IMG/VR virus record: IMGVR_UViG_3300013131_000260
Location: 1-22,733 of that record
DNA: 22,733 nt
Direction: 5' to 3' (one strand)
From: a virus
Shown in pieces: positions 2,742 through 21,764 of the stretch. The notes beneath the pieces are model-generated. The model searched no databases. It had not been told where the DNA came from and saw only the letters and a program-made list of their open reading frames with translations. How positions within the stretch are numbered: position 1 is the stretch's first letter; each line of letters starts with the position of its first letter. The translations under genes and the position numbers were made by a program.

Positions 2742-4625
2742 ATGATTGATCAGCAAATTAGTTCTCGTGTCGCGGCTTACCGCGATAATCCTCAACAGCT
2801 ACAGCAGCGTTACGCTGTGTCCCAAGAGCTGATTGACTTGCTTGCGCTTCAAAAAATCAAGTCAGACAAAGAAGCTGCTGCTCGTGAGATGCAGCTTAAG
2901 ATGGCACAGCAACAAGCCGCAAACGGTGAAATGCCGACGGTTGCACAGCAACGCGAAAATGAAGTCATGGATCTGACTAAGCAGGAGATTGCTAGCCAGC
3001 GCGGGGACTTGTTGCAGCAGCAGGAAAAAGAAAAGCAACAACGCATGAACCAACTAATGAGTGGTGTTGCTAATGCCCCCGGCGCACAGAACGCCATGAC
3101 CCAGCAAGCTATGGCTGCGGGTGGGATTGTTGCGTTTAGTGGGGAAGATCAGAGTTATGTCCCACGTAGTGCAGTAGCACCTTCGCCTTTCGGTGGCCCA
3201 GCGGCAGAGCGTGGCACCGGTGCGCCAAAAGTTTCTTTGTCTAATGAAGATGAGCGAGATATTCTTGCACGTATAGAAGCTAAGATTAAAGACGGCACCG
3301 CTACTCCGTCTGAAATACGTAGAGCAAATGGTATCCGTGCACGACTTCTTGGCAATAGGGCAGAACCTCGACCCGCTCCTCCTGCTGCCGCTGCTCCTGC
3401 TGCCGCTCCTACTTCGCCCCCTTATTCAGACAGCGATGCGGCGGAACGCGCAGATCGCATGACAGGCTCTGTTACGCCCCCACCATCCCAAAACAAACCA
3501 CCACAACAACAACAACGTCCTCCACAAGCGGGGATACCTGCTGCCCTACCTCAAGGGGGTGCTCCTGCTTCTGCTCCGGCTGCGTCGGCTGCTCCGGCAG
3601 GGATACCTTCAGCATTACCCAGAGAAACGCCGCCTGAACTTCCAACAAACCCTGCGCTGGAGAATGCAATTAACAAAAATGTTGGTATAGATCCTGAAGC
3701 ACGTCAACAGGCAGAAGAAACAAGAATTGAGAACAAAAGAAAGCTAACCCCCGACCAACGTGCGGTATATCAAGCTGGTATTGATGAGCGTGATCGCATG
3801 ATGAAGGAAGAGTTTGATCCTGAACGGCAACGATTGGAAGGAATTAAACGTTTTCTTATTGGTATGGGCGGCAGAGCTTACGGCGAGTTGGGTGCAGGTG
3901 CTTCTGCGTCTATGGGGTATGAAGACGCTCAACGTCAAGCTAGGAAGAAAGCGTTTGAAGATTTACAAAAATCGCGTGAGGGCTTAATTGGGTTAGACCG
4001 TAAGGCTGTAGAAGAAGGCATAGCAAGTGGGATGGAATCACGTAAGAGCGCAACAGACTTACAGAAAACGGCTACTTCGGCAGGTGCTTCTATTCTCGGA
4101 GACCGCACTAAAGCAGCAGAAGGTATATACCAATCACGTGTTGCAGAACGTGGGCACGACGTTAACGCCGCTACTCTACTACGTGGGCAGAATCTTAATT
4201 ATTCTTCTCAAAAACTTGATAGAGAGTCTCTAGAACGTAGAAATGCGCTTTCAAACGCTGTGGAAGCCAAGAAAGCTGAAGCCATGTTGGAAGCTAACAA
4301 ACTGGCAAAAGAACAAGCCAATGAAAGTAGGATTCAAAACTTCATCTCTAATACTGAAAAATGGATGGCGCAAGAAAAACGTAAGATTGAGGAATCTATA
4401 CAAAAAGATCCTCGTATTTATCAGCTAATGCTAATGGACCCTAAAAAACTTTCTAAAGCTGAAAGAAACGATGTGGAAACCGCAAAACTAGAAATACAAT
4501 CAGCTAAAGCAAAAATAGACGAGTCTATGGGACCGGTGTTAGATCGAGCTAGAGCTAAATTAAGTATAGGTACGGGGCTGTCTAAGGAAGATGAATCACT
4601 TGTAGCTAAACACCTTGGTAAGTAG
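2742..4625 (+). CDS. Long helical phage structural-type protein with Pro/Ala linker
   Basis: 627 residues. The ATG lies 3 bases after the upstream stop. Residues 1-120 are Gln-rich and probably coiled coil. They are followed by MAAGGIVAFSGEDQSYVPR (about 126-144) and a long Pro/Ala/Gln low-complexity linker (about 205-310). The C-terminal half (about 320-627) is highly charged and predicted helical, including FLIGMGGRAYGELGAGASAS, and ends in SKEDESLVAKHLGK. No catalytic motif is seen. The helix-linker-helix layout and the position before the giant protein fit an internal virion (ejection) protein, which is inference. The stop TAG is separated from the next ATG by one base. Confidence 0.78.
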   Translation: MIDQQISSRVAAYRDNPQQLQQRYAVSQELIDLLALQKIKSDKEAAAREMQLKMAQQQAANGEMPTVAQQRENEVMDLTKQEIASQRGDLLQQQEKEKQQRMNQLMSGVANAPGAQNAMTQQAMAAGGIVAFSGEDQSYVPRSAVAPSPFGGPAAERGTGAPKVSLSNEDERDILARIEAKIKDGTATPSEIRRANGIRARLLGNRAEPRPAPPAAAAPAAAPTSPPYSDSDAAERADRMTGSVTPPPSQNKPPQQQQRPPQAGIPAALPQGGAPASAPAASAAPAGIPSALPRETPPELPTNPALENAINKNVGIDPEARQQAEETRIENKRKLTPDQRAVYQAGIDERDRMMKEEFDPERQRLEGIKRFLIGMGGRAYGELGAGASASMGYEDAQRQARKKAFEDLQKSREGLIGLDRKAVEEGIASGMESRKSATDLQKTATSAGASILGDRTKAAEGIYQSRVAERGHDVNAATLLRGQNLNYSSQKLDRESLERRNALSNAVEAKKAEAMLEANKLAKEQANESRIQNFISNTEKWMAQEKRKIEESIQKDPRIYQLMLMDPKKLSKAERNDVETAKLEIQSAKAKIDESMGPVLDRARAKLSIGTGLSKEDESLVAKHLGK

Positions 4626-4626
4626 T

Positions 4627-7600
4627 ATGGATCTACAAACTGTACTCACTGCGCTACGTAACGCTGATGCTGCTGGTAATGTTGAAGATGCGCGTAAGTT
4701 AGCGCAAATAGCTAGGCGACTTCAAGGACAACCTCAAGCTGGTGAGGAGCTGGAATCGACGCGCATACAGCGTCGGTTAGCGGAACTACGCGCTCAGCCG
4801 CCGGAACCTCCTGAGACAACAGTCAGAGGGAACGTCAAAGAATTCTTCAAAGGAATTGTCCCCGGTGCAGTGGGTCTTGCCGAAACCGCAGGAACTGGCA
4901 TCGCTGCTATGCTGCCAGAAGAAACCGAAAAGGCTGCGCGAGAGAAGATCAAAGAAATTGCAGGGATCGTAAAGAAACCCTTTGAAGCTGCCGAAGGTTA
5001 CGAAGACAGTGTGGGTCGCAGGTTAAGTGAAGGTCTTGGATCTACGATACCTTTCTTTTTACTTGGCCCTGCTGGGTTGGCTGGCAGAGCTGCTGCCGCT
5101 GGTCTGGGTGTAGCTGCTGGCGCTGGTGAAGCGCGAGAATCCGCAGAACAAAAAGGTGCAACTGCTGAAGAAAGACGCACTGCCACACTACTCGGCGCAC
5201 CGACAGGACTGCTTGACCTTCTTGCGCCCAACATTCCGGGCTTTAAAAGTATTATTACTACGGCGCTTGCACGAGGTGGTATTGAGGGTGCTACGGAAGC
5301 TGCACAAAAGATTTCTCAGAACCTTATCGCTAAAGGTGTTTACGATCCTAGCCAACCCGTACTAGCCGGATCAGGCGAAGAAGGTGTCTATGGTGCAGGG
5401 GTCGGTGCGCTTGCCAGTCTGATCTTAGACCTGACGGTAGGGCGCAAAGCCAGACAAGCTCGCTTCGGGGAAAAGCCCCCAGAGACACAACCTCCTCCCC
5501 CACCCCCGGAATCAGGAGTGCAAGCTCCGACAGCGCAAGCTCCACAGGGTGAGTTGTTTCCGGCTGAGTTGGCACAGGCACAAGAAGAAGTTGCCAAACG
5601 TGAAGGCCCGCCCACATCGGCCATGCGGCAAGAAGAACCTGCACGTGAACCCACTGCGGCAGAAGCAGGGCAGATGTCATTGTTTGAAGGCGAAGCCGGA
5701 CCTTCGGAGTTAGAGACCAAGCAACCTGACTTGTTCGGTATGGTGATGCCTGACAAGAAAGAAGAAGCTGTCCAACAAGAACCTGAAGTTGTAGCCGAAC
5801 GCGACGAGCGGCAGCAAGAATTACCGCTGACCGGCGGACGTACGCTTGACCAACAAATCATAGAGTTGTATGCAGGAGAACAAAACAGGCAAGAAGTAGA
5901 GCGGATTCAACAAGCGAGAGCAAGATCCGAAGCAGAAGCTCAAGCGGAAGTAGAAAAAGCCAGACTGCGGTTTGAGTCAGATCTTGAGAGTGTCAATGCA
6001 CGTTTGCAAGACACAAGAGATAAGACAACAGAACAAAATCGTATGGCGGTTTTACTACCTATTATTGAATCTGATACAAAAAATATACCACGTGAATTTA
6101 GCCGTCAGCTTGCAATCAAAGGGTTTACAAATACAAACCTTACCGATGCAGAACGTGCGTTAATTAAACGCGTCTACGATTTCCGACTTGCTGTACCTGC
6201 GACTCCTGCTGCACCGGAAGTTGAACCTTCTGCACCAGCCGAATTGACCGAGCTAGAAGGTGCAGTGCCTGAAAAGAAAGAAACAAGAATTCCTGAACAG
6301 ATAGGGTTCCCCGGCATGGGCAAGCCGAAAGGCGTAGCACCTGTACAAGAACCTGTACAAGAAGAGGAAGTAGAGACTGAATTTTCGCCCGTTATAACGC
6401 CTGACTTATTAGATGGTACGGGGCTGTCAAAGCAATCGGGGTACTACAAACGACTTGTCAACAAAGACATGACTGTCCCCGAGCAGCAGAACCAAGTACG
6501 TGATGTCTTAGTGGATGCGCGTTCAAACCCTAACCTGTCTGCATCGACCAAGCAAGGTATAGAACGTGTAGCGATGCAAGCTTTCGGTGCGTTAGCAAAG
6601 CAAGGTGAGTTGTTTGGACCAAAAGGTGGTGTAGCCAAACCAGCTCCAAAACCGAAGCCCGCCCCCAAAACCGAAGCTAAAAAAGAAACCCCCAAAACCG
6701 AGGAGAAGAAAGATGTTCCAAAAACTGAGCCTAAGAGAGAAGCTCCAAAAACTGAAACTACGCAAAAGACAAGCACAGGTGACGGCGATAACAAACCGCG
6801 ATCTGGAACTAGCGCTCCAAGTGGTAAGTCAGATAAGTCAGAGAAACGCGGTGAGAGTACCGAAAAATCTGGAACATCTGAACGAGATGGAGTGGGCAAA
6901 AATGCACCAGCTACTGATGAGACTGGAGTACGAAAAGAAGGTGCTGGGAGTACATTAAAGAAGGAAACGCAGAAGACTGAGGGAAAGAAGGAAACGCAGA
7001 AGACTGAGGAAAAGAAAGAAGCACCGAAGACTGAGGGAAAGAAGGAAACGCAGAAGACTACGCCACGTCCTGAGCTATCTACTGTAAGGAAGGCTGACCC
7101 CAAGCTTGGGTTTTACGACAGAGTTGCTACTGAAGGTGTAGTGGAGACCTCAGCGGCAGGTGAACCTATGGTCGGTAAAGGCGATGCAATTGATGCGTTA
7201 GCCTACGATGTTTACGTTGCTTCGATGTTTGCTGAAAAAGGTGGACTAGTAAGCACCGCCAAGATGACCAAGATGATGTTGGATCTAAAGGCAGGAAGGG
7301 TTCCTGAAGATCTTAATTTTGGTGGGCCGACGACGGTAAGTACACCAGACTCCGGCGGTAAGTATGCACGTTCATTCCTTGAGTCTTTAGACGAACCAGG
7401 TTTAAAGCGGTTTAGAGAAGCTTTGCTTAACTACTTTACAAAAGTAGAAGCGCAGATTCAAATGGGTGTATCACGCTTCTCTGATCGGCAAGCCTATGAA
7501 AGAGCGTTACAAGAACAGCTCACTCGCCCCGAAGGTGTAGAAGCTCCCAAGGGTGGGGACAGAGTTCCCGCACGTAAACCCGTACCAGTTGCTCAACACG

Positions 7601-10600
7601 GTGACTACAAGCCGCCGAGACCTCTGGGGATGCGCGTCGGGGCTATGGATTTTGCGGACCTACCCAGTGGCGCAAGTCATCCTGCACCTGAAGAACTCAA
7701 GCGTGAGTTTGTAGTCTTCTATCAACCTGTGCATCCTGCTGTGACCAAAGCTCTTCAGAATGGTGATCTGGTCGGTGCGCTTACCTTACTTGGCAAAGCC
7801 CACCTTGGACGTGCGTCTATGGTTGCAAAGGTGCTGGCCCCCCTAATGAAGGGCGTTAAGGTAGAACTTGTTGAAGATTTAAAGAACGCTCAAGGTCGCC
7901 CTCTTGCTGGTTCATACGACTATGCCACCAAGACGATCCGGCTAAATGTAGATAAATACATGAGTCCACATGCGCTGCTACATGAAGCAACGCACGCCGC
8001 ATTTGCCAACGTATTGAGTAACAAGTCACACCCTGCGTACAAGCAACTATCTGAACTCTATAACAACGTCAAAGACTCACTTGATACGGCGTATGGTTCG
8101 CGGTCTCTTGAAGACTTTGTATCGGAAGCGTTCAGTAATCCTGAGTTCATTGCCAAGCTCGCCGCAATCAACCCACGTGGGGAAAAGATCAGTGCATGGC
8201 GGCGGTTCTCTACCGCAGTTCTTAATTACTTGCGGAGTGCAATTGGACTAGAAACTAAAGGTTTGAACTCTGCGCTTGATACTACAGACCGTGCGCTTCT
8301 GGACTTGCTTGCACCGAATGCACAGGCTTTGGGGGTTGGGTCGTTGTATCAAGCATCAGTGCTAGGCACCGGAGCAGAAGTCTTTAAGGCTATCGACAAT
8401 CGCATCTTGTCGTTTCCTGTTATTAATAGCAATTGGGGCACCAAGCTCTACGAACTTATTCGCAATAAGATTCCCGGCGTATCCAACACCCTAGTCCTAC
8501 GTAGCTTGCCGCTTAACGCGCTGGTTGAAGTTGCTGTAAAAGATATACCGATGGCGACTAAGTTAGATACGCTAGAGAAACAATGGAACGGTGCAGTTGA
8601 CCGTCGTCGCCGTGAAGCTGATGCAACGATGACCCGTATTCAGCGGTGGTTGAAGAACGATAAAAATAAAGAAACAATCTTAAATGATGTTGTGACTCAA
8701 TCGACACTTGAGCAGGTGGACCCCAGTAAACCTAGGGATTACTATAAAGATAAGACGAGTGATAAGTACAAAGAAACTGTCAAACAAGTCATATGGGATC
8801 AGTTGCAACCTCAGTGGAAGAACTTGGGGGAAGAAGGGCAAGCAATCTATAAACAGATGCGCGATACCTACGCCAACTACCAAGAAGATCTAATGAACAT
8901 GTTGTTCAATCGGATTGACGCTTCTGGTATACCTACTGAAGAAGGTAAAAAACTTAAGACTGAAATCTATAAGCGGCTTGCAGTCAAGGGTAAGATCGAA
9001 CCCTACTTCCCGCTTACTCGCTCAGGTGGCTATTGGCTTGCTTACAATGGCAAGGGTCCAGACGGTAACGTTGAACGGTTTGTCGAAGCCTTCCCCACGT
9101 CGGTTGAACGCGAGCTTGCGATTAAACAGCTTGAACAAAACAGCGATGTGGATAAGAAGTCCATTGAACGATTTGCTCAACTAGCTAAAAAATCTTATCG
9201 GGATGCACCTCCGACATCATTTGTAAACAACGTACTACGTATCTTGGAAGCTAACAAGGTTAACCCCGAAACCACTGATGAAGTGATGCGGGCGTTCTTG
9301 GCTACGCTACCGGAAACTTCTTTTGCACAGTCTTTCCGTACTCGGAAAGGCACGCTGGGTTTTAACCCCAATGCAGCCGCTGCGTTCTACGGCAAATCCA
9401 TCAGCATGTCGCACCAACTCGCAAATCTTGAGTACGGTGCAAAGATGTACAAGCTGCGCGATGAGATGGAAGAGTTTGTTAAAACCAAAAACAATACCGA
9501 TACCGCAAACTCTCTTCTGACAGAACTCAATAGCCATATCAGAACGCTTGTATCTCCCAGCATTTCTCCATTGTCAAAAGGGTTGACCTCCGGTGCGTTC
9601 TACTGGACTTTGGGTGCAAACGTGTCATCCGTTATTGTTAACTCTGCGAACATACCGATGGTTGTGATGCCTTATCTTGGCGGTAACTATGGGTACAAAG
9701 AAGCGAATACAGCCATAGGTAAAGCTACCCGCATCTTCTTTGGTAGTGGGGTAGACCGTTCGACGTTGATGTCAGGTACCGAGAAAGGTAAAGACGGCAG
9801 CACTATCAGGATGAAGTCTGGGTTTTCATTTGATAACTACGACTTTGATAAATTCGATGCTGCCGTTGCCGCACATGTAAAAAAATCTGGGAAGGAACCT
9901 ACCGCAAAAGAACGTTTGCAAATTGCAAAAAATGTAGGGGTACCTGAAAACGTTATTGAACTTAAAGAACTCGCCACGCTATCCACCGAATACGGCTTAC
10001 TCAACCGCTCCATGATGCAAGACTTACTTGAATCTGATAAGGGTGATTCTCCACTTGATAAAGTTAACAAATATTTCAGCTTCCTGTTTCACCACGGCGA
10101 GCGCATGAACCGGCAGATAACTATGCTGGCTTCTTATATGTTGGCACTTGACAAAGTGCGGGCTGCTGACGGCTCAACAACTTCCGAGCAGCGACAGGCA
10201 GCAGCAGAACAAGCGGTTAAAGAAACAGAACTACTTAACGGTGGGGCCAGTGCAGGAAGTGCGCCGCTGCTGGCTAAAAATTCACTGGGTAAGATAATGT
10301 TTATGTACAAACGGTACGGCGTATCGATGTACTACATGCTGTTTAAAACGACTCGTGACATGTTAGCCAACGAAAACCCGGAAGTTAGGGCCGCAGCTAA
10401 AAGACAGATTGCGGGGGTCTATGCCACATCTGCCCTACTTGCTGGAGCGCAAGGAATACCGATGTTTGGTATTGCCGCTTTGATCTACAACATGTTTAAA
10501 GATGACGATGAAGATGACTTTGAAACCGCCGCCCGTAAGTATCTTGGCGAAGGCATGTTCAATGGTGCGTTGAATTACTTTACAGGTCTTGCAGTCTCTA

Positions 10601-11250
10601 ACCGTATCGGACTGACCGACTTACTGATGCAAAGCACAGGATACAAAGATCAAGAAAACATTATCCTTTCTTTCTTACAGCTTGTGGGTGGACCTGTCTA
10701 CGGCGTCGGTGAACGTATGGCCCGTGGCGCTAAGCAAATGTGGGAGGGGGAACTACAGCGCGGGCTTGAGCAGATGGCACCTGCGGCAATCGGTAACGCC
10801 ATGAAGTCCATCCGGTACGCAACAGAAGGTGCGAACACTTTGCGAGGTGACCCCATCGTCGGAGAAATCGGCGCGTGGAATGCTTTTGCACAGTTCTTTG
10901 GATTTATGCCAGCCGAATACGCCCGTCAGATAGAAATCAACGCATCCCTGAAGAACATCGAGCGAAGCGTACTTGAAGACCGGACCAAGCTGCTACGCCG
11001 CTACTACATCGCGGTTCGCAACGGTGACTCACAAGAAGCAGCAGACACAATAGGTGAGATGAACAAGTTGAGCAGTAAGCACCCCGGTGCAAGGATCACG
11101 GCGGAAACAATCCGAAACTCCATGGCTCAACACCGTAAGACTTCTGCTGAGATGTACGCTGGGATAACGCTCAACAAGTCAATGCGAGCCGAACTACTAG
11201 CAAGTGCTCGTGAGTTTGACGATGACGACTATGGGGATGATGAGGACTAA
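4627..11250 (+). CDS. Giant polyvalent virion-type protein: HEATH metallopeptidase motif, PLxRFG-like and LPD38-like regions
   Basis: 2,207 residues from ATG 4627. A TTG at 4615 in the same frame is less likely because it lies within the upstream gene. Order: helical N-terminus; hydrophobic Gly/Ala segment (about 137-170); a second small-residue segment (about 254-275); Pro/Gln/Glu linker (about 280-560) with QGELF, QMSLF and QPDLF; Lys/Thr/Glu repeat region (about 665-815); zinc-peptidase motif H1119-E-A-T-H1123 with a plausible third ligand E1167 in FVSEAF; PLTRSG at 1462-1467 within YFPLTRSGGYW, matching the PLxRFG signature; hydrophobic segment (about 1655-1690); and an LPD38-like C-terminal part (about 1880-2010) with RYGVSMYYMLFKTTRDML, a small-residue hydrophobic stretch and DDDEDD. 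The tail is very acidic. LPD and PLxRFG domains are known from phage polyvalent proteins thought to enter the host with the DNA. Domain names come from pattern memory, not a profile search. Confidence 0.82.
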   Translation: MDLQTVLTALRNADAAGNVEDARKLAQIARRLQGQPQAGEELESTRIQRRLAELRAQPPEPPETTVRGNVKEFFKGIVPGAVGLAETAGTGIAAMLPEETEKAAREKIKEIAGIVKKPFEAAEGYEDSVGRRLSEGLGSTIPFFLLGPAGLAGRAAAAGLGVAAGAGEARESAEQKGATAEERRTATLLGAPTGLLDLLAPNIPGFKSIITTALARGGIEGATEAAQKISQNLIAKGVYDPSQPVLAGSGEEGVYGAGVGALASLILDLTVGRKARQARFGEKPPETQPPPPPPESGVQAPTAQAPQGELFPAELAQAQEEVAKREGPPTSAMRQEEPAREPTAAEAGQMSLFEGEAGPSELETKQPDLFGMVMPDKKEEAVQQEPEVVAERDERQQELPLTGGRTLDQQIIELYAGEQNRQEVERIQQARARSEAEAQAEVEKARLRFESDLESVNARLQDTRDKTTEQNRMAVLLPIIESDTKNIPREFSRQLAIKGFTNTNLTDAERALIKRVYDFRLAVPATPAAPEVEPSAPAELTELEGAVPEKKETRIPEQIGFPGMGKPKGVAPVQEPVQEEEVETEFSPVITPDLLDGTGLSKQSGYYKRLVNKDMTVPEQQNQVRDVLVDARSNPNLSASTKQGIERVAMQAFGALAKQGELFGPKGGVAKPAPKPKPAPKTEAKKETPKTEEKKDVPKTEPKREAPKTETTQKTSTGDGDNKPRSGTSAPSGKSDKSEKRGESTEKSGTSERDGVGKNAPATDETGVRKEGAGSTLKKETQKTEGKKETQKTEEKKEAPKTEGKKETQKTTPRPELSTVRKADPKLGFYDRVATEGVVETSAAGEPMVGKGDAIDALAYDVYVASMFAEKGGLVSTAKMTKMMLDLKAGRVPEDLNFGGPTTVSTPDSGGKYARSFLESLDEPGLKRFREALLNYFTKVEAQIQMGVSRFSDRQAYERALQEQLTRPEGVEAPKGGDRVPARKPVPVAQHGDYKPPRPLGMRVGAMDFADLPSGASHPAPEELKREFVVFYQPVHPAVTKALQNGDLVGALTLLGKAHLGRASMVAKVLAPLMKGVKVELVEDLKNAQGRPLAGSYDYATKTIRLNVDKYMSPHALLHEATHAAFANVLSNKSHPAYKQLSELYNNVKDSLDTAYGSRSLEDFVSEAFSNPEFIAKLAAINPRGEKISAWRRFSTAVLNYLRSAIGLETKGLNSALDTTDRALLDLLAPNAQALGVGSLYQASVLGTGAEVFKAIDNRILSFPVINSNWGTKLYELIRNKIPGVSNTLVLRSLPLNALVEVAVKDIPMATKLDTLEKQWNGAVDRRRREADATMTRIQRWLKNDKNKETILNDVVTQSTLEQVDPSKPRDYYKDKTSDKYKETVKQVIWDQLQPQWKNLGEEGQAIYKQMRDTYANYQEDLMNMLFNRIDASGIPTEEGKKLKTEIYKRLAVKGKIEPYFPLTRSGGYWLAYNGKGPDGNVERFVEAFPTSVERELAIKQLEQNSDVDKKSIERFAQLAKKSYRDAPPTSFVNNVLRILEANKVNPETTDEVMRAFLATLPETSFAQSFRTRKGTLGFNPNAAAAFYGKSISMSHQLANLEYGAKMYKLRDEMEEFVKTKNNTDTANSLLTELNSHIRTLVSPSISPLSKGLTSGAFYWTLGANVSSVIVNSANIPMVVMPYLGGNYGYKEANTAIGKATRIFFGSGVDRSTLMSGTEKGKDGSTIRMKSGFSFDNYDFDKFDAAVAAHVKKSGKEPTAKERLQIAKNVGVPENVIELKELATLSTEYGLLNRSMMQDLLESDKGDSPLDKVNKYFSFLFHHGERMNRQITMLASYMLALDKVRAADGSTTSEQRQAAAEQAVKETELLNGGASAGSAPLLAKNSLGKIMFMYKRYGVSMYYMLFKTTRDMLANENPEVRAAAKRQIAGVYATSALLAGAQGIPMFGIAALIYNMFKDDDEDDFETAARKYLGEGMFNGALNYFTGLAVSNRIGLTDLLMQSTGYKDQENIILSFLQLVGGPVYGVGERMARGAKQMWEGELQRGLEQMAPAAIGNAMKSIRYATEGANTLRGDPIVGEIGAWNAFAQFFGFMPAEYARQIEINASLKNIERSVLEDRTKLLRRYYIAVRNGDSQEAADTIGEMNKLSSKHPGARITAETIRNSMAQHRKTSAEMYAGITLNKSMRAELLASAREFDDDDYGDDED
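6958..7062 (+). repeat. 27-bp coding tandem repeat (KKETQKTEG)
   Basis: Four 9-codon units code KKETQKTEG, KKETQKTEE, KKEAPKTEG and KKETQKTT, in frame within the giant protein. Looser Lys/Pro/Thr/Glu copies (PKTEAKKETPKTEEKK and similar) lie upstream from about 6640. The repeat makes a long, highly charged, probably disordered linker before the peptidase-like part. Confidence 0.85.
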
Positions 11251-15374: not shown

Positions 15375-15647
15375 TCAGATGTCTCTATCGGGGTTACTGT
15401 AAAAATCAAACTCTAACTGCACAGGGGGCTTCAATTTATCTTCGGACTGCTCCTTTTTAACATCGTCTTTCTGTGTCGTGTTCAAGTGATCCAGAATCTT
15501 AGGGATACTGAATCGGTACGTATTACCAATCTTCAAGTAACTATTTCTTGGTACATGCCCAACTCGCATCCATACACGAATTGTCGATACCGATACTTTG
15601 AAATACTTGGCTACCCCCTCAATCGGCACAAGTCCGTCGTCCGTCAT
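15375..15647 (-). CDS. MerR/excisionase-type helix-turn-helix DNA-binding protein
   Basis: 90 residues from ATG 15647, with AGGAGG about 5 nt upstream. A GTG one codon earlier is also possible. The N-terminal 50 residues, VPIEGVAKYFKVSVSTIRVW then GHVPRNSYLKIGNTYRFSIPKI, match the helix-turn-helix and wing pattern of MerR-like or excisionase proteins (HTH_17 style). The C-terminal part is charged and ends VQLEFDFYSNPDRDI. The stop of the upstream gene overlaps the start (TGATG), indicating coupled translation. It may regulate the local promoters or act in replication initiation or recombination. No effector domain is present. Confidence 0.75.
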   Translation of the reverse strand: MTDDGLVPIEGVAKYFKVSVSTIRVWMRVGHVPRNSYLKIGNTYRFSIPKILDHLNTTQKDDVKKEQSEDKLKPPVQLEFDFYSNPDRDI

Positions 15648-16051
15648 CACTTCCTCCTAACTGTGATACTGTATTCGCTATCCACTTGTAGCCCCGGTGG
15701 ATGCAAATCGGGGTTGTCTTCCATAAACTGCTTCATGTTTGTTTGGTGTAACCGCTCGTGCAAAAGCTCGGGTACGTTGTGCTCAACAATGAACTTACGC
15801 ATGGAGTCCCAGTCGCTTGTCCAGTAGTTGGTCTTCACCGTGCGGTAAAACAAACCTTCATTAGTGCGAACGCTCTCGACGTTCTGACCTTTACAGTAAG
15901 CCAAAAGCGTAGCCTTGACTTTTGCCATCTGCTCTTTTAACTTGGTTTCTTCTTCCTCGTACGCTTTACGCTTCTCAGTCAGCGCCGCATTCATCTTGAG
16001 GTAGACTTTTACCAGCTTTTCAACCGGTATTTCGGTGGTTTCTTCAGACAT
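15647..16051 (-). CDS. Conserved-looking phage coiled-coil protein of unknown function
   Basis: 134 residues. ATG is preceded by AAGGAGTGAGGAAAA. The N-terminal half is a Lys/Glu-rich probable coiled coil (about 8-50). The C-terminal part contains VESVRTNEGLFYRTVKTNYW, then HERLHQTNMKQFMEDNPDLH and PPGLQVDSEYSITVRRK. From memory this C-terminal pattern is common in phage proteins near ssDNA-binding or recombination genes, where it has no assigned function. It is the first gene of a small operon with its own promoter just upstream, followed by the helix-turn-helix and ssDNA-binding-like genes. Confidence 0.75.
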   Translation of the reverse strand: MSEETTEIPVEKLVKVYLKMNAALTEKRKAYEEEETKLKEQMAKVKATLLAYCKGQNVESVRTNEGLFYRTVKTNYWTSDWDSMRKFIVEHNVPELLHERLHQTNMKQFMEDNPDLHPPGLQVDSEYSITVRRK

Positions 16052-17811: not shown

Positions 17812-17840
17812 ACTGTATCCCCGCAACGGGGGAATGTCAA
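17812..17840 (-). promoter_or_regulatory. Sigma70-like promoter with an inverted repeat in its spacer
   Basis: On the minus strand a perfect -35 TTGACA (17835-17840), a 17-bp spacer and TACAGT (-10, 4 of 6; 17812-17817). The spacer contains the inverted repeat CCCCG-TTG-CGGGG (17819-17831), placed like a repressor or MerR-type operator. The -35 overlaps the TGA stop of the HNH gene. It would drive the SNF2 helicase or a short leader RNA. Confidence 0.65.
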
Positions 17841-18133
17841 GCAGGTTTTTTGCCCCCCGGCTCATGTACGCTGTGGCCGTTCCTTGCGCGATTTTTAGCC
17901 GCTGACATGAGGCGGATACCAGTTCTGTTAGACCCACCTTTGGATAACATCTTTACGTGATCGATGTCTTTCCCCTCACGGCGGTCGGCTTTGCCGTTAC
18001 CGTTCTTGTCTGCGCCTGTCTTGTCCATCTCTCGTCGTGCGCGTTGCCGTTCCATTCGGTCAGGGTGCTCGCCACGCTTTTTCTGCATAGCGTATTCATG
18101 TGCGTAGGGGCGGGGGGACTTGGTGTACGGCAT
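17837..18133 (-). CDS. Small HNH endonuclease with an EF-hand-like loop
   Basis: 98 residues. ATG has GGAAGGA upstream and lies 2 bases after the previous gene's stop. The core KDIDHVKMLSKGGSN (D58-H59, GGSN 66-69) with a later N81 in AAKNRARNGH fits the small HNH endonucleases common in phages. Directly before it, DKNGNGKADRRE (42-53) fits the 12-residue EF-hand calcium loop pattern. The N-terminus is basic and Arg-rich. It may nick or cut DNA in replication, recombination or packaging. Other basic phage proteins with a DH pair cannot be excluded. Confidence 0.7.
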   Translation of the reverse strand: MPYTKSPRPYAHEYAMQKKRGEHPDRMERQRARREMDKTGADKNGNGKADRREGKDIDHVKMLSKGGSNRTGIRLMSAAKNRARNGHSVHEPGGKKPA

Positions 18134-18810: not shown

Positions 18811-18992
18811 CGTTGGTTTTCCTGTTCAAGTTTAATTGCGCTAATTGCAAACCTTAAAAACACGATCATCTCTAGTCCTATTTCGATAGCCCGCTCGTAG
18901 TCCTTATGTTGCATCGCGTCATACATCCTGCGTTGCCCTTCGTTTACTCTGACCAAATATTCCGCGTAATCATTCACTTCAGCAATCTCCAT
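18807..18992 (-). CDS. Small helical protein of unknown function
   Basis: 61 residues. ATG overlaps the preceding stop by one base (TAATG), and its stop overlaps the nuclease GTG start (GTGA), so it is translationally embedded in the operon. It is predicted all-helical and mixed charge, with a hydrophobic segment EMIVFLRFAISAIKL near the C-terminus. No motif was recognised. Its tight coupling supports it being a real gene. Confidence 0.65.
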   Translation of the reverse strand: MEIAEVNDYAEYLVRVNEGQRRMYDAMQHKDYERAIEIGLEMIVFLRFAISAIKLEQENQR

Positions 18993-19951
18993 TAACTCAC
19001 TACCTTATAAGCTTCTCGTTTACGTAAGGGGCCAGACCCACGGACAAACGGCCCCCACCAATAGACACCACTTTGCCTAACTTTAAAGTGACCCCGCACG
19101 TAATGCGCGGCTAGATCCGAACGCTTAGATACGAACCCAGATGTCTCTGATACAGATTCTATCTCAGACAATGATAGTACGGTGTACTTAGAACATGATC
19201 GCTTCTTACTCGCTTGACCTTCATAGTTTGGGGGTGCTTTTTTAGCGGGCACTTCTGTCTTGGTAACCCCTGATTTACAGTTGATAAGCGACAGAGCTGC
19301 AAACATGAGTGTAGATAATTCTTCTACAGTTTCAGTAGCTGCTCTTTTAAACAGGTCAGGGTCTTTACGAAATTGATAGTTTAGTGCGTGTGCTATAAGC
19401 GGATCTGCGCCAGTTGCCCATACTGATGAAAGCATCATATGAACGGATATCATTCTCCCGTTGGGGAGCACTATCATTGCCTTAGTAAGTTTATCGCAAA
19501 CACTTTCAGGTGCATTAAACACAACTGACAGCATAGTTACCTCAACTACATGATTGTCTTCGTATTGCCAATATGGTTGAGCAATTATTGCTCCTTCTGG
19601 CTGAGCTTTTAGATGTACTCCAACTTTACATATAGTGTTTGTTGCATGTGGATCTTTATTGTCCCGTAAAGCTTTAACTTCCGGGGTCAAGTTCATTTCA
19701 ATTACGGTCTCTGGATAAGGAAGACGTACCTCTTTTAAATCTTCAGGTACAACGTTCGACTTTGTTTTGGATAACTTCTGTGCAGCTAACCCTAACTCGT
19801 CAGATAATACAAATATCTGTGCTTTTCTATCAGTTAAGTACGTACTATACTTTACGTTTAGTACGCGATCATCGGAAAAAATTTTTTGACTATCGTACTC
19901 TCCACTAGCAATTTGAGCGTACAAAGGTTTATAGTGTTTAGCAGTCGCCAT
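18992..19951 (-). CDS. Phage protein with C-terminal RGHF/WWGP domain, function unknown
   Basis: 319 residues from ATG 19951, which overlaps the polymerase gene end by 14 bases. A GTG eight codons earlier is less likely. Residues 1-240 include an alpha/beta part with VIEMNLTPEVKALRD and VVEVTMLSVVFNAPESVCDK, without a recognised fold. The last ~40 residues, AHYVRGHFKVRQSGVYWW then FVRGSGPLRKREAYKVV, match a small domain I recall in many phage and plasmid proteins (RGHF, WxP, RG pattern) of unknown function. A linker around 245-270 is Lys/Pro-rich. Its place next to the polymerase suggests a replication-associated role; no activity can be assigned. Confidence 0.7.
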   Translation of the reverse strand: MATAKHYKPLYAQIASGEYDSQKIFSDDRVLNVKYSTYLTDRKAQIFVLSDELGLAAQKLSKTKSNVVPEDLKEVRLPYPETVIEMNLTPEVKALRDNKDPHATNTICKVGVHLKAQPEGAIIAQPYWQYEDNHVVEVTMLSVVFNAPESVCDKLTKAMIVLPNGRMISVHMMLSSVWATGADPLIAHALNYQFRKDPDLFKRAATETVEELSTLMFAALSLINCKSGVTKTEVPAKKAPPNYEGQASKKRSCSKYTVLSLSEIESVSETSGFVSKRSDLAAHYVRGHFKVRQSGVYWWGPFVRGSGPLRKREAYKVVS

Positions 19952-21764
19952 ATGATTTCCCCACTCCAGATTCACAGTTAACGGGTAATCCTTCTGCCCA
20001 GTCAGGCACCCAACGCATACTTTCTTCTACGTAGTGTCGGGCTTCTTCGACATCAACATCACGGCACACAATCGCAATCGCATCATGCACTGTCAGTACA
20101 ACTTTGTACTTCTTTGATATACGCAACATCTGCTCGCCAATGATACATCGGGCAATCGCTTGGCACACATTCTCTATAACTTTCCCACCGTAGATCCGAG
20201 TGCGCCCCCTGCGAGTCTGATAACTAAACTCAACACCCTTGTCAGTCTCGTTAAACTCTAAGTCGTCATAGCGCATCAACAAACCTGAAGGTAGGCGGAT
20301 AGCGGATTCGGCGGGTACAACTTCTAGTACACCTTCCCTACCCAGTACGGCGGGGTCTTTGAGGGACAGGTTTACTAAGACGTTTTGAGCTTGCCGCCAC
20401 AGTCGTGTGATTGCATCATTAGTGCGTCGATAGATGTCAATAATTCTCCGGGCTTCGTCGATGTCCACTTCTACACCAAACGTCTTAAGTTGTGCCTGAA
20501 ACTTAATCGCACCCATGCCATACCCTGCACCAAGAATTGTGGTCTTACCGACGAACCGTTGCTCCTTGGTAATTTCTTCTTCCTCTACCCCGTAGATCGC
20601 GCTAGCCATCTTTCGGTAAACATCTTTACCTTGAGCGAATGCTTCGACCAAATCTTCCTGCTCCGCAAGCCATGCCAACACACGTGCTTCAATCTGTGCT
20701 GAGTCTGCATCAATGATGCTATAACCCTCGGGTGCGCGGATCGCTTTCTTTAACTTGTTCGCATGTTCTCCACGGCTTGGCAGATTCTGCATGTTGATCT
20801 TGTCATCCCCGCCGAACCTGCCAGTATGTGCGGCGTAGTAACGTATCGGTACAGGCAACCGGCCTCGCTGCGCGATATCAATGAACCGCTGCGTTCTAGT
20901 TTCTTCAAGCGTTGACTTCGTACCAAGACGCGCTGAAACTAGCCCTTGCACATCGGGGTCCGGGTGGTCCAAAAGTTCTTTAAACCCCTCGTCGTTCTTG
21001 GCGAACGCGAACGTCTGCTGACCTGTGGCAGGGCTTTCTTTCATCGGGGGTTCTACACCAAACTTGATAAGCAGTTCCGCAAACTTCGGGTTACTCATCA
21101 ATTCTTCCTTCTCCACCCCACAATAAGTCAGCAGTTGTTCCTTACGCTCCTGCACTTCTTTCAGGTGCTGCTCCAACAAGTCCTTATCCAACTCAAGCCT
21201 AGGTTCAATGAACATGCGTAGGGTTACATCAATAAGTTGTAGCTCTTTCTTGGGAAAGGAACGCGCCATGCGTTTGAACAAGTTATAAGTTATCTCTACG
21301 TCATTAACGCAGTAGTCCCCGTACCGTGACAGGCTGTACTCATCGAAATCGGCGCGTCGTTTACCGATAGCTGCTATGACTTCTGTACCTTTCTCACCCA
21401 ACTTATAACGTTCTGCCATAGCTTTAAGTGAACCGCCCACCTCCACACCATGCAAAGCCCTACCCATGCACAGAGTGTCAAGCCATACGCGAGGATAAAC
21501 GTCAAAGCGCCAACTAAGTATAGAGCCGTCAAACATTGTGTTATGGGCGAGAACCATCGCGTCCGACCATTTGAATGACCCATGCAACCAATCCTTAATC
21601 TGTTTGTGCGTACCGCTAGCCCACTGCGTCTGCTCGTTGTTGACTTTGATGCCAACACCAATTACTTCAAACAAGTCGGAACGAACATATTCCTCGGTTG
21701 TAATTTTTGAGAGTGAATACTCTCGGTCGTAATAAGTTTCAAAATCAATTGTGATGATGTCCAA
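19938..21764 (-). CDS. polA-like: Family-A DNA polymerase with 3'-5' exonuclease
   Basis: 608 residues. The start is TTG at 21764: AGGAG lies 7 nt upstream and no ATG/GTG precedes the exonuclease motif. Exonuclease motifs: D7-F-E9, N75 to D79 (NTMFD) and Y151 to D155. Polymerase motifs: A, D354-SAQIEAR; TGRF..NMQNLPS before it; B, R403-xxx-K407-xxx-L411-G-xx-Y415-G; C, VH560-D561-A562. No 5' nuclease domain is present, as usual in phage enzymes of this type. L411 is equivalent to E. coli Pol I residue 762. Motif C is HDA rather than the usual HDE. It is the phage replicative polymerase and works with the primase-helicase downstream. Confidence 0.95.
   Translation of the reverse strand: MDIITIDFETYYDREYSLSKITTEEYVRSDLFEVIGVGIKVNNEQTQWASGTHKQIKDWLHGSFKWSDAMVLAHNTMFDGSILSWRFDVYPRVWLDTLCMGRALHGVEVGGSLKAMAERYKLGEKGTEVIAAIGKRRADFDEYSLSRYGDYCVNDVEITYNLFKRMARSFPKKELQLIDVTLRMFIEPRLELDKDLLEQHLKEVQERKEQLLTYCGVEKEELMSNPKFAELLIKFGVEPPMKESPATGQQTFAFAKNDEGFKELLDHPDPDVQGLVSARLGTKSTLEETRTQRFIDIAQRGRLPVPIRYYAAHTGRFGGDDKINMQNLPSRGEHANKLKKAIRAPEGYSIIDADSAQIEARVLAWLAEQEDLVEAFAQGKDVYRKMASAIYGVEEEEITKEQRFVGKTTILGAGYGMGAIKFQAQLKTFGVEVDIDEARRIIDIYRRTNDAITRLWRQAQNVLVNLSLKDPAVLGREGVLEVVPAESAIRLPSGLLMRYDDLEFNETDKGVEFSYQTRRGRTRIYGGKVIENVCQAIARCIIGEQMLRISKKYKVVLTVHDAIAIVCRDVDVEEARHYVEESMRWVPDWAEGLPVNCESGVGKSYGDC

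Follow-up and report, generated by a model that had tools for sequence, protein, structure and literature searches.

Two associated residue pairs at positions 703, 734, 762 and 883 in the family A DNA polymerase of an environmental Leu762 phage

In DNA polymerases of family A, two aspartates hold the metals, with E883 of Escherichia coli DNA polymerase I (PolA) close by as an accessory acid. F762 packs against the incoming nucleotide, and His734 in the T7 and Klenow polymerases contacts the phosphates of the deoxynucleoside triphosphate. The current work concerns the PolA of IMGVR_UViG_3300013131_000260, a 22.7 kb fragment of a virus genome; the window below means this whole stretch of 22,733 nucleotides. 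The protein has Leu at position 762 and Ala at position 883 of E. coli, whose numbering is used for positions 703, 734, 762 and 883 throughout. Across the sampled family the state of 883 is paired with that of 703, and the state of 762 with that of 734. Both associations are strong in the sequences compared, and they are presented as hypotheses because they came from a post hoc search and from few independent events.

The residue at 762 serves to guess phage lifestyle from metagenomes, and groups of viral PolAs with Leu762 have been described (Nasko 2018, PMC6302109; Keown 2022, PMC9069017). In Leu762 Group I, according to Nasko 2018, a RecB-like gene lies near polA in 70% and a SNF2-like gene in 55%. 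The window resembles the groups of both papers in Leu762 (L411 of the window protein) and in a SNF2-like helicase and a RecB-like gene by polA; as a further likeness, the scan of 17 window proteins gave no ribonucleotide reductase. The Group I trait is a RecB-like helicase, and the window gene encodes a RecB-like nuclease in which Pfam gave no helicase domain. Unlike in those papers, positions 703, 734 and 883 are tied here to the states of 762 and of motif C.

The closest named phage by tblastn is Rhizobium phage RHph_TM3_14A (35% over 100%), and the four closest records are all Rhizobium phage isolates of this type. It has Leu762, with RecB-like, SNF2 and primase-helicase genes in the same stretch in another order; unlike the window, it keeps E883, with Ala703. 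Pseudomonas phage KPP25 and its relatives (Kochitakasuvirus) share with the window Leu762, Tyr734, about 34% identity over 98%, and a RecB-like exonuclease and a helicase near polA, whereas KPP25 keeps E883 with Thr703 and has a different gene order. In the PolA of phage Tt72, as described in PMC9324360, the motif C Glu is also replaced, by Ser instead of the Ala of the window, but position 762 is Phe. This natural Ser883 enzyme is active, and its Ser-to-Ala version (S616A) keeps 76% of the activity in an exonuclease-dead background. E. coli Klenow and T7 gp5 have the same catalytic residues as the window PolA, and the Klenow fold is matched by both sequence and model; unlike the window, they have Phe or Tyr762 with His734, and Glu883 with Ser or Gly703.

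Leu has also been placed at this position in T7. The Y526L change cost 97% of the activity and the cycle was not completed; the authors expect compensating changes, as yet unidentified, in natural Leu enzymes. Following the failure of the T7 Leu mutant, a 2026 preprint sees a key direction in the mechanisms by which natural Leu762 enzymes compensate. Since T7 Y526L is nearly inactive, native Leu762 enzymes probably differ elsewhere too.

The window PolA belongs to PF00476, with a profile score of 136.5 bits against a curated cut-off of 34.3, and contains the catalytic set of that family: D354 and D561 in motifs A and C, and R403, K407 and Y415 in motif B. Its AlphaFold model, with a mean predicted local distance difference test (pLDDT) score of 92.3, matches the Bst, Taq and Klenow polymerases over residues 1-608 with Z up to 29. 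These whole-length matches and the Pfam E-value (Table 1) put its identity as a PolA beyond chance. In the model, residues 348-355 form a single strand, and residues 555-559 and 562-568 form the motif C hairpin. The Glu that usually follows the motif C Asp, which is neither universal nor defining for family A, is replaced by A562.

Alignment with E. coli PolA pairs R403 with R754, K407 with K758, L411 with F762, Y415 with Y766, D354 with D705, E359 with E710, D561 with D882 and A562 with E883. Alignment with T7 gp5 pairs L411 with Y526, A562 with E655, D354 with D475 and D561 with D654. The phmmer alignment with Klenow gives the same assignment in motifs A and B and stops short of motif C. A previous reading of this DNA, made from its letters alone (the sequence-only reading), had described motif B as R403-xxx-K407-xxx-L411-Gxx-Y415 with Leu at the equivalent of 762, motif C as VHDA, motif A as DSAQIEAR, and the two catalytic aspartates as intact. 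The alignments bear out each of these points: motif B reads R403-FVG-K407-TTI-L411-GAG-Y415, motif C is V559-H-D561-A562, and D354-SAQIEAR proves to be the norm of the clade. Missing from that reading are D352, which lies two positions ahead of the catalytic D354, and Y383; these pair with A562 and L411, respectively. In the exonuclease domain, D79, Y151 and D155 correspond to E. coli D424, Y497 and D501, and D7 and E9 to T7 D5 and E7; E. coli D355 and E357 were misaligned at the far N-terminus, and the statement on the exonuclease is based on D79, Y151, D155 and the T7 alignment. The residues kept in both domains suggest that the window PolA would be an active, proofreading enzyme.

The best 80 of at least 593 IMG/VR relatives were aligned with the window, at identities of 69-87%, and all 80 have Leu762. 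Motif C in these 81 sequences is HDA in 51 and HDS in 30; in motif A, S355, Q357, I358, E359, A360 and R361 are present in 81/81, and position 356 is A in 70 and S in 11. A scan started from KPP25 added 77 sequences, all with Leu762, in which the motif C residue is A in 53, E in 21 and S in 3. Leu762 is thus found in the window and in all 157 environmental relatives aligned; as far as these alignments go, it is ordinary for the group of the window, and it is already known in the literature. The HDA to which the sequence-only reading drew attention is also present widely and is not peculiar to the window: position 883 in the 161 group members is A in 104, S in 33 and E in 24. HDA as an oddity of the window protein alone was rejected for this reason, HDA or HDS being found in 137/161.

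The literature lists E883 among the crucial acidic residues of the Pol I active site, and HDA could accordingly be a sign of a degenerating or inactive polymerase. This is very improbable. The other catalytic residues of the exonuclease and polymerase are kept in at least 155 of 158 sequences (the window and the 157 environmental relatives), with the exonuclease residues D7, E9, D79, Y151 and D155 kept in 157-158, and the loss of the acid is the common state of the group. The activity of Tt72 PolA with Ser or Ala at this site also argues against inactivity, and by this analogy it supports the expectation, already voiced in the sequence-only reading, that the window enzyme should be active.

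For the statistics, a widened sample was drawn from scans with HMO-2011, Vibrio 1.215.A, a Leu762 siphophage, Rollin, T7 and RHEph02 as queries, from named phages and from cellular PolAs; the Vibrio 1.215.A scan gave 2 loci only. The 669 proteins were reduced to 316 representatives at 80% identity, of which 305 had both motifs and 11 were dropped for missing motifs (from an earlier set of 234, 9 and then 3 more were set aside). Relatives of the window are over-represented among these 305 rows. The scan compared 428 columns, covering window residues 180-608, in reduced residue classes, and the score was normalised mutual information. Both pairings emerged from this scanning of columns, post hoc, and were not predicted in advance. 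The class Asp/Glu/Asn at 703 was fixed on the first 161 sequences, and Gln was added as a second count only; Asp at 883, present in two HDD rows, was classed as an acid after the rows were seen. The tree contained 149 rows, and branch support was marked at 95.

The first pairing joins motif C with motif A. Among the 161 group members, A or S at 883 goes with D, N or E at 703 in 137/137, and E at 883 goes with A, V or T at 703 in 24/24. No acid is found at 883 in 147 of the 305 representatives; 138 of these 147 have D, E or N at 703 (141 if Gln is counted), compared with 2 of the 158 that keep the acid. For the state of 883, column 352 has the highest score of all 428 columns, 0.844 against 0.501 for the runner-up, and it is also first within the 212 Leu762 rows (0.904, runner-up 0.708). 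The pairing recurs in the Phe762 phages HMO-2011, Vibrio 1.215.A, Friunavirus P1489 and RHEph02. L287, a separate Leu762 lineage whose relatives have HDE, combines HDQ with D703; the branches concerned have support of 90-93, under the mark. An acid at 883 is retained in the two HDD enzymes, and their residue at 703 is S or A.

The second pairing joins motif B with position 734. Column 383, which is H734 in E. coli and H506 in T7, ranks first of 428 for the state of 762 (0.894, runner-up 0.834). Leu762 is accompanied by Tyr734 in 207/212 representatives and Ile762 in 2/2, while Phe or Tyr762 is accompanied by His734 in 90/91, the remaining row being a gap. Outside the main Leu clade this column is still first, and Tyr734 is found in 7 of 11 Leu rows compared with 0 of 91 Phe/Tyr rows. 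One Leu row, L510, was scored as Arg734 by alignment; its raw sequence reads GDPY, with the Tyr shifted one residue. The two pairings appear separate from each other. A coupling of Leu762 to the loss of E883 was considered and rejected, since columns 562 and 352 come 419th and 306th of 428 for the state of 762, and the independent pairs on the tree show no agreement between the 762 and 883 states.

Both pairings might instead be clade markers, that is, few ancient changes inherited by many relatives with no direct functional coupling. This is doubtful, yet likely enough to be weighed seriously, and the following points speak for it or otherwise weigh against functional pairs. On the 149-row tree there are about 7 changes of the 883 state and 7 changes of 762. 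Supported branches yield 4 independent pairs for 883/703, with 2-3 concordant and 0-1 opposite, and 4 for 762/734, with 0-2 concordant and 0 opposite; the sign test is never significant, and for 883/703 it cannot reach significance because there are only 4 pairs. Other columns track clades too, as the runner-up scores show, and the lead becomes small for column 352 in the 93 non-Leu762 rows (0.756 against 0.733) and for column 383 outside the main Leu clade (0.724 against 0.679). Nine acid-lost rows are without D, E or N at 703 (L403, JD007, D266, UEM6, L555 and L633, and, with Gln, PollyC, L614 and L609), while L616 and L624 have D703 and E883 together. These last two also combine Leu762 with His, as does L552 when read by eye; L553 is ambiguous. 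Asn stands at 703 in 37 rows, for which the word carboxylate is too narrow.

Against clade markers stand the far lead of column 352 for 883, its first rank both within and outside the Leu762 rows, the first rank of column 383 overall and outside the main Leu clade, and the repeat of the first pairing in L287 apart from the clade of the window. Both partner sites are also near active-site residues, in sequence or in known function.

A separate observation at position 703 concerns L518 (JD007), L524 (D266), L561 (UE-M6) and L555, in which HDS or HDA occurs with Gly703, the acid being gone without its usual partner.

Functional pairs would work as follows. The window PolA would carry out ordinary two-metal DNA synthesis through D354 and D561. 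The third acidic residue would have moved, motif C losing E883 to A562 and motif A gaining D352 in place of S703, so that D352 would take over the accessory role of E883 as a relocated polar group near the metals. As Asn703 is common, what is restored may be a polar or hydrogen-bonding group close to the metals and not charge alone. At the other site, the ring at 762 that grips the incoming nucleotide would be replaced by L411, and H734 by Y383, which would supply the lost contact. Such compensation fits the loss of activity in T7 Y526L, the compensating changes expected by its authors, and the activity of Tt72 PolA without Glu883.

The best explanation of the locus, to which we give slightly better than an even chance, is an active, proofreading replicative PolA of a virulent-type tailed phage, belonging to a large environmental Leu762 clade related to KPP25 and RHph_TM3_14A and carrying two matched residue pairs. 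A wider proposal is made tentatively and falls somewhat short of an even chance: the Leu762 PolA may represent a second stable way of building the nucleotide pocket, in which the aromatic contact has passed from 762 to 734 and, independently, the third acid can shift from 883 to 703, so that the enzyme would be neither crippled nor simply slow.

Both the 883/703 and the 762/734 pairing look new. Neither was found in the literature searched, which was open-access only, so that absence from print is not implied. The main texts of PMC6302109, PMC9069017 and the T7 Leu paper do not mention 703, 734 or 883, and that of the T7 Leu paper mentions none of 473, 506 and 655 either. Tyr734 is a concrete and strongly associated candidate for the compensating change in Leu762 enzymes. 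The exchange from 762 to 734, if true, would explain why T7 is disabled by a single Leu although Leu762 is the most frequent type in published viromes. The exchange between 703 and 883, if true, would mean that the third acid in the active site of Pol I is able to relocate, a point that would be of use in the annotation and engineering of polymerases.

The sequence-only reading had linked Leu762 with slow, accurate synthesis and a temperate-like phage. A published correlation does exist (PMC6302109, where a slower and more accurate Taq Leu mutant is also cited), and this part of the claim stands. Its description of the enzyme as slower and more accurate is unsafe given T7 Y526L: fidelity was not measurable for Leu, and in T7 the comparison of Tyr with Phe did not show the fidelity trade-off. 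The temperate inference also found no support here, and as a whole that reading is unlikely. A tyrosine integrase (PF00589) was found in 0/23 distinct relatives' records, among them KPP25, RHph_TM3_14A and nine IMG/VR contigs 60-66 kb long; a serine resolvase (PF00239) in 0/12 virus records of relatives; and ParA (PF13614) in 0/14 relatives' records. In a relative of 61.65 kb, for which 65 of 66 open reading frames of at least 75 residues were scanned as called within 20 kb pieces, no integration function was among the matches listed (25 of 36 Pfam families, and 25 of 66 PHROGs at 1e-8). Two peptide patterns searched against one genome each of 84,980 species gave 23 loci, all of them in contigs titled as metagenome-assembled genomes (MAGs) or metagenome bins.

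The nearest relative with a lifestyle description seen is CRPAP1904, fifth in the tblastn list and a member of the KPP25 genus, Leu762 itself being read in its genus-mate KPP25; it is reported to be lytic, to lack an integrase homologue and to have a burst of about 109. Bradyrhizobium elkanii phages reported as virulent also carry Leu762. Other observations favour a temperate phage: RHph_TM3_14A has an annotated attL, and short HTH_3-like proteins occur in 8/14 relatives' records, 2 of them over the cut-off, so that relatives may have a small repressor or regulator. The sole hint of lysogeny noticed in the window is a 91-residue helix-turn-helix protein (15375-15650), with a weak HTH_17 match below the cut-off and a weak match to phrog_66, 'excisionase and transcriptional regulator', at 7e-5. 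Since the window is a 22.7 kb fragment, its lifestyle has to be inferred, and the phage is probably lytic, that is, virulent. The use of Leu762 as a temperate sign should be weakened. The 'putative integrase' annotated in RHph_TM3_14A (L082:30610-33693) was rejected as such; it is a homologue of the window DUF927 primase-helicase (25%, 4e-61), and the record has no PF00589 match.

The features of PolA and its neighbouring genes are collected in Table 1. No tRNAs and no Rfam families were found in the window.

Table 1. Coordinates of PolA features and neighbouring genes in the window
Feature	Position	Strand	Basis
Family A DNA polymerase (PolA), 608 aa, 3'-5' exonuclease and polymerase domain, TTG start	19938..21764	-	Pfam DNA_pol_A 1.5e-39; phrog_17 6.2e-93; AlphaFold model
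3'-5' exonuclease domain, aa 1-168, with D7, E9, D79, Y151, D155	21261..21764	-	Pfam DNA_pol_A_exo1 22.7 bits, slightly under the 23.6 cut-off
Polymerase domain, aa 197-608	19941..21176	-	Pfam DNA_pol_A over 197-606
Motif A: D352 (E. coli S703), catalytic D354 (D705), steric gate E359 (E710)	20682..20711	-	alignment
Y383, codon TAC (E. coli H734, T7 H506), proposed partner of L411	20616..20618	-	alignment and column scan
Motif B: R403..K407..L411..Y415; L411 (CTT) = position 762	20520..20558	-	alignment
Motif C: V559-H560-D561-A562; A562 (GCG) in place of E883	20079..20090	-	alignment
327-aa open reading frame of unknown function, directly downstream of PolA; listed form overlaps the PolA end by 38 bases	18992..19975	-	phrog_20769 1.3e-8
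RecB-like PD-(D/E)XK nuclease, 224 aa	18136..18810	-	PF12705 6.9e-16; 22% identity to KPP25 RecB family exonuclease, 8e-12
Small 98-aa protein of unknown function	17837..18133	-	phrog_4590; no Pfam match
SNF2-type helicase, 513 aa	16104..17645	-	PF00176 8e-23, PF00271 2.5e-16; 27% identity to KPP25 putative helicase, 2e-36
DUF927 primase/helicase-like protein, 953 aa	11514..14375	-	PF06048 1.3e-22; phrog_8841 primase/helicase 7.5e-36

Inside this replication module, a 134-residue protein (15647-16051) matches phrog_13900, 'minor head protein', at 2e-19, so that either its name or its location is odd; KPP25 too has a gene named minor head protein near polA. Elsewhere in the window, a 2211-residue protein (4615-11250) contains the large polyvalent protein domain LPD39 and a HEATH (HExxH-like) stretch. 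The 61.65 kb relative has an open reading frame of 2086 residues and one protein with an LPD39 match, and the two may be the same. At its C-terminal end, a 296-residue protein (1848-2738) has GGGGNDTV repeats, which match the RTX calcium-binding repeat at 2.7e-5. In positions 1-472, tandem repeats (periods of 18 and 21 bases, and longer) encode low-complexity stretches of NQDQ and PPKPPEE types in a protein that is cut at the start of the window.

Two observations concern MAGs. A Dehalococcoidia MAG chromosome of 1.12 Mb (CP070693.1) contains, at L498:9699-11845, a window-like PolA with 55% identity in the best segment, together with an Hjc-like resolvase gene. The two genes sit between the bacterial tatA/tatC and etf genes, and a stop splits the PolA frame in the table of open reading frames; the locus may be what is left of phage genes and not a prophage. 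In two other MAGs, G027 and G028 (the sources of L501 and L502), 14 and 9 PF00476 stretches were counted, compared with 2-4 in each of 19 other genomes, which suggests either many binned phage contigs or many polA copies.

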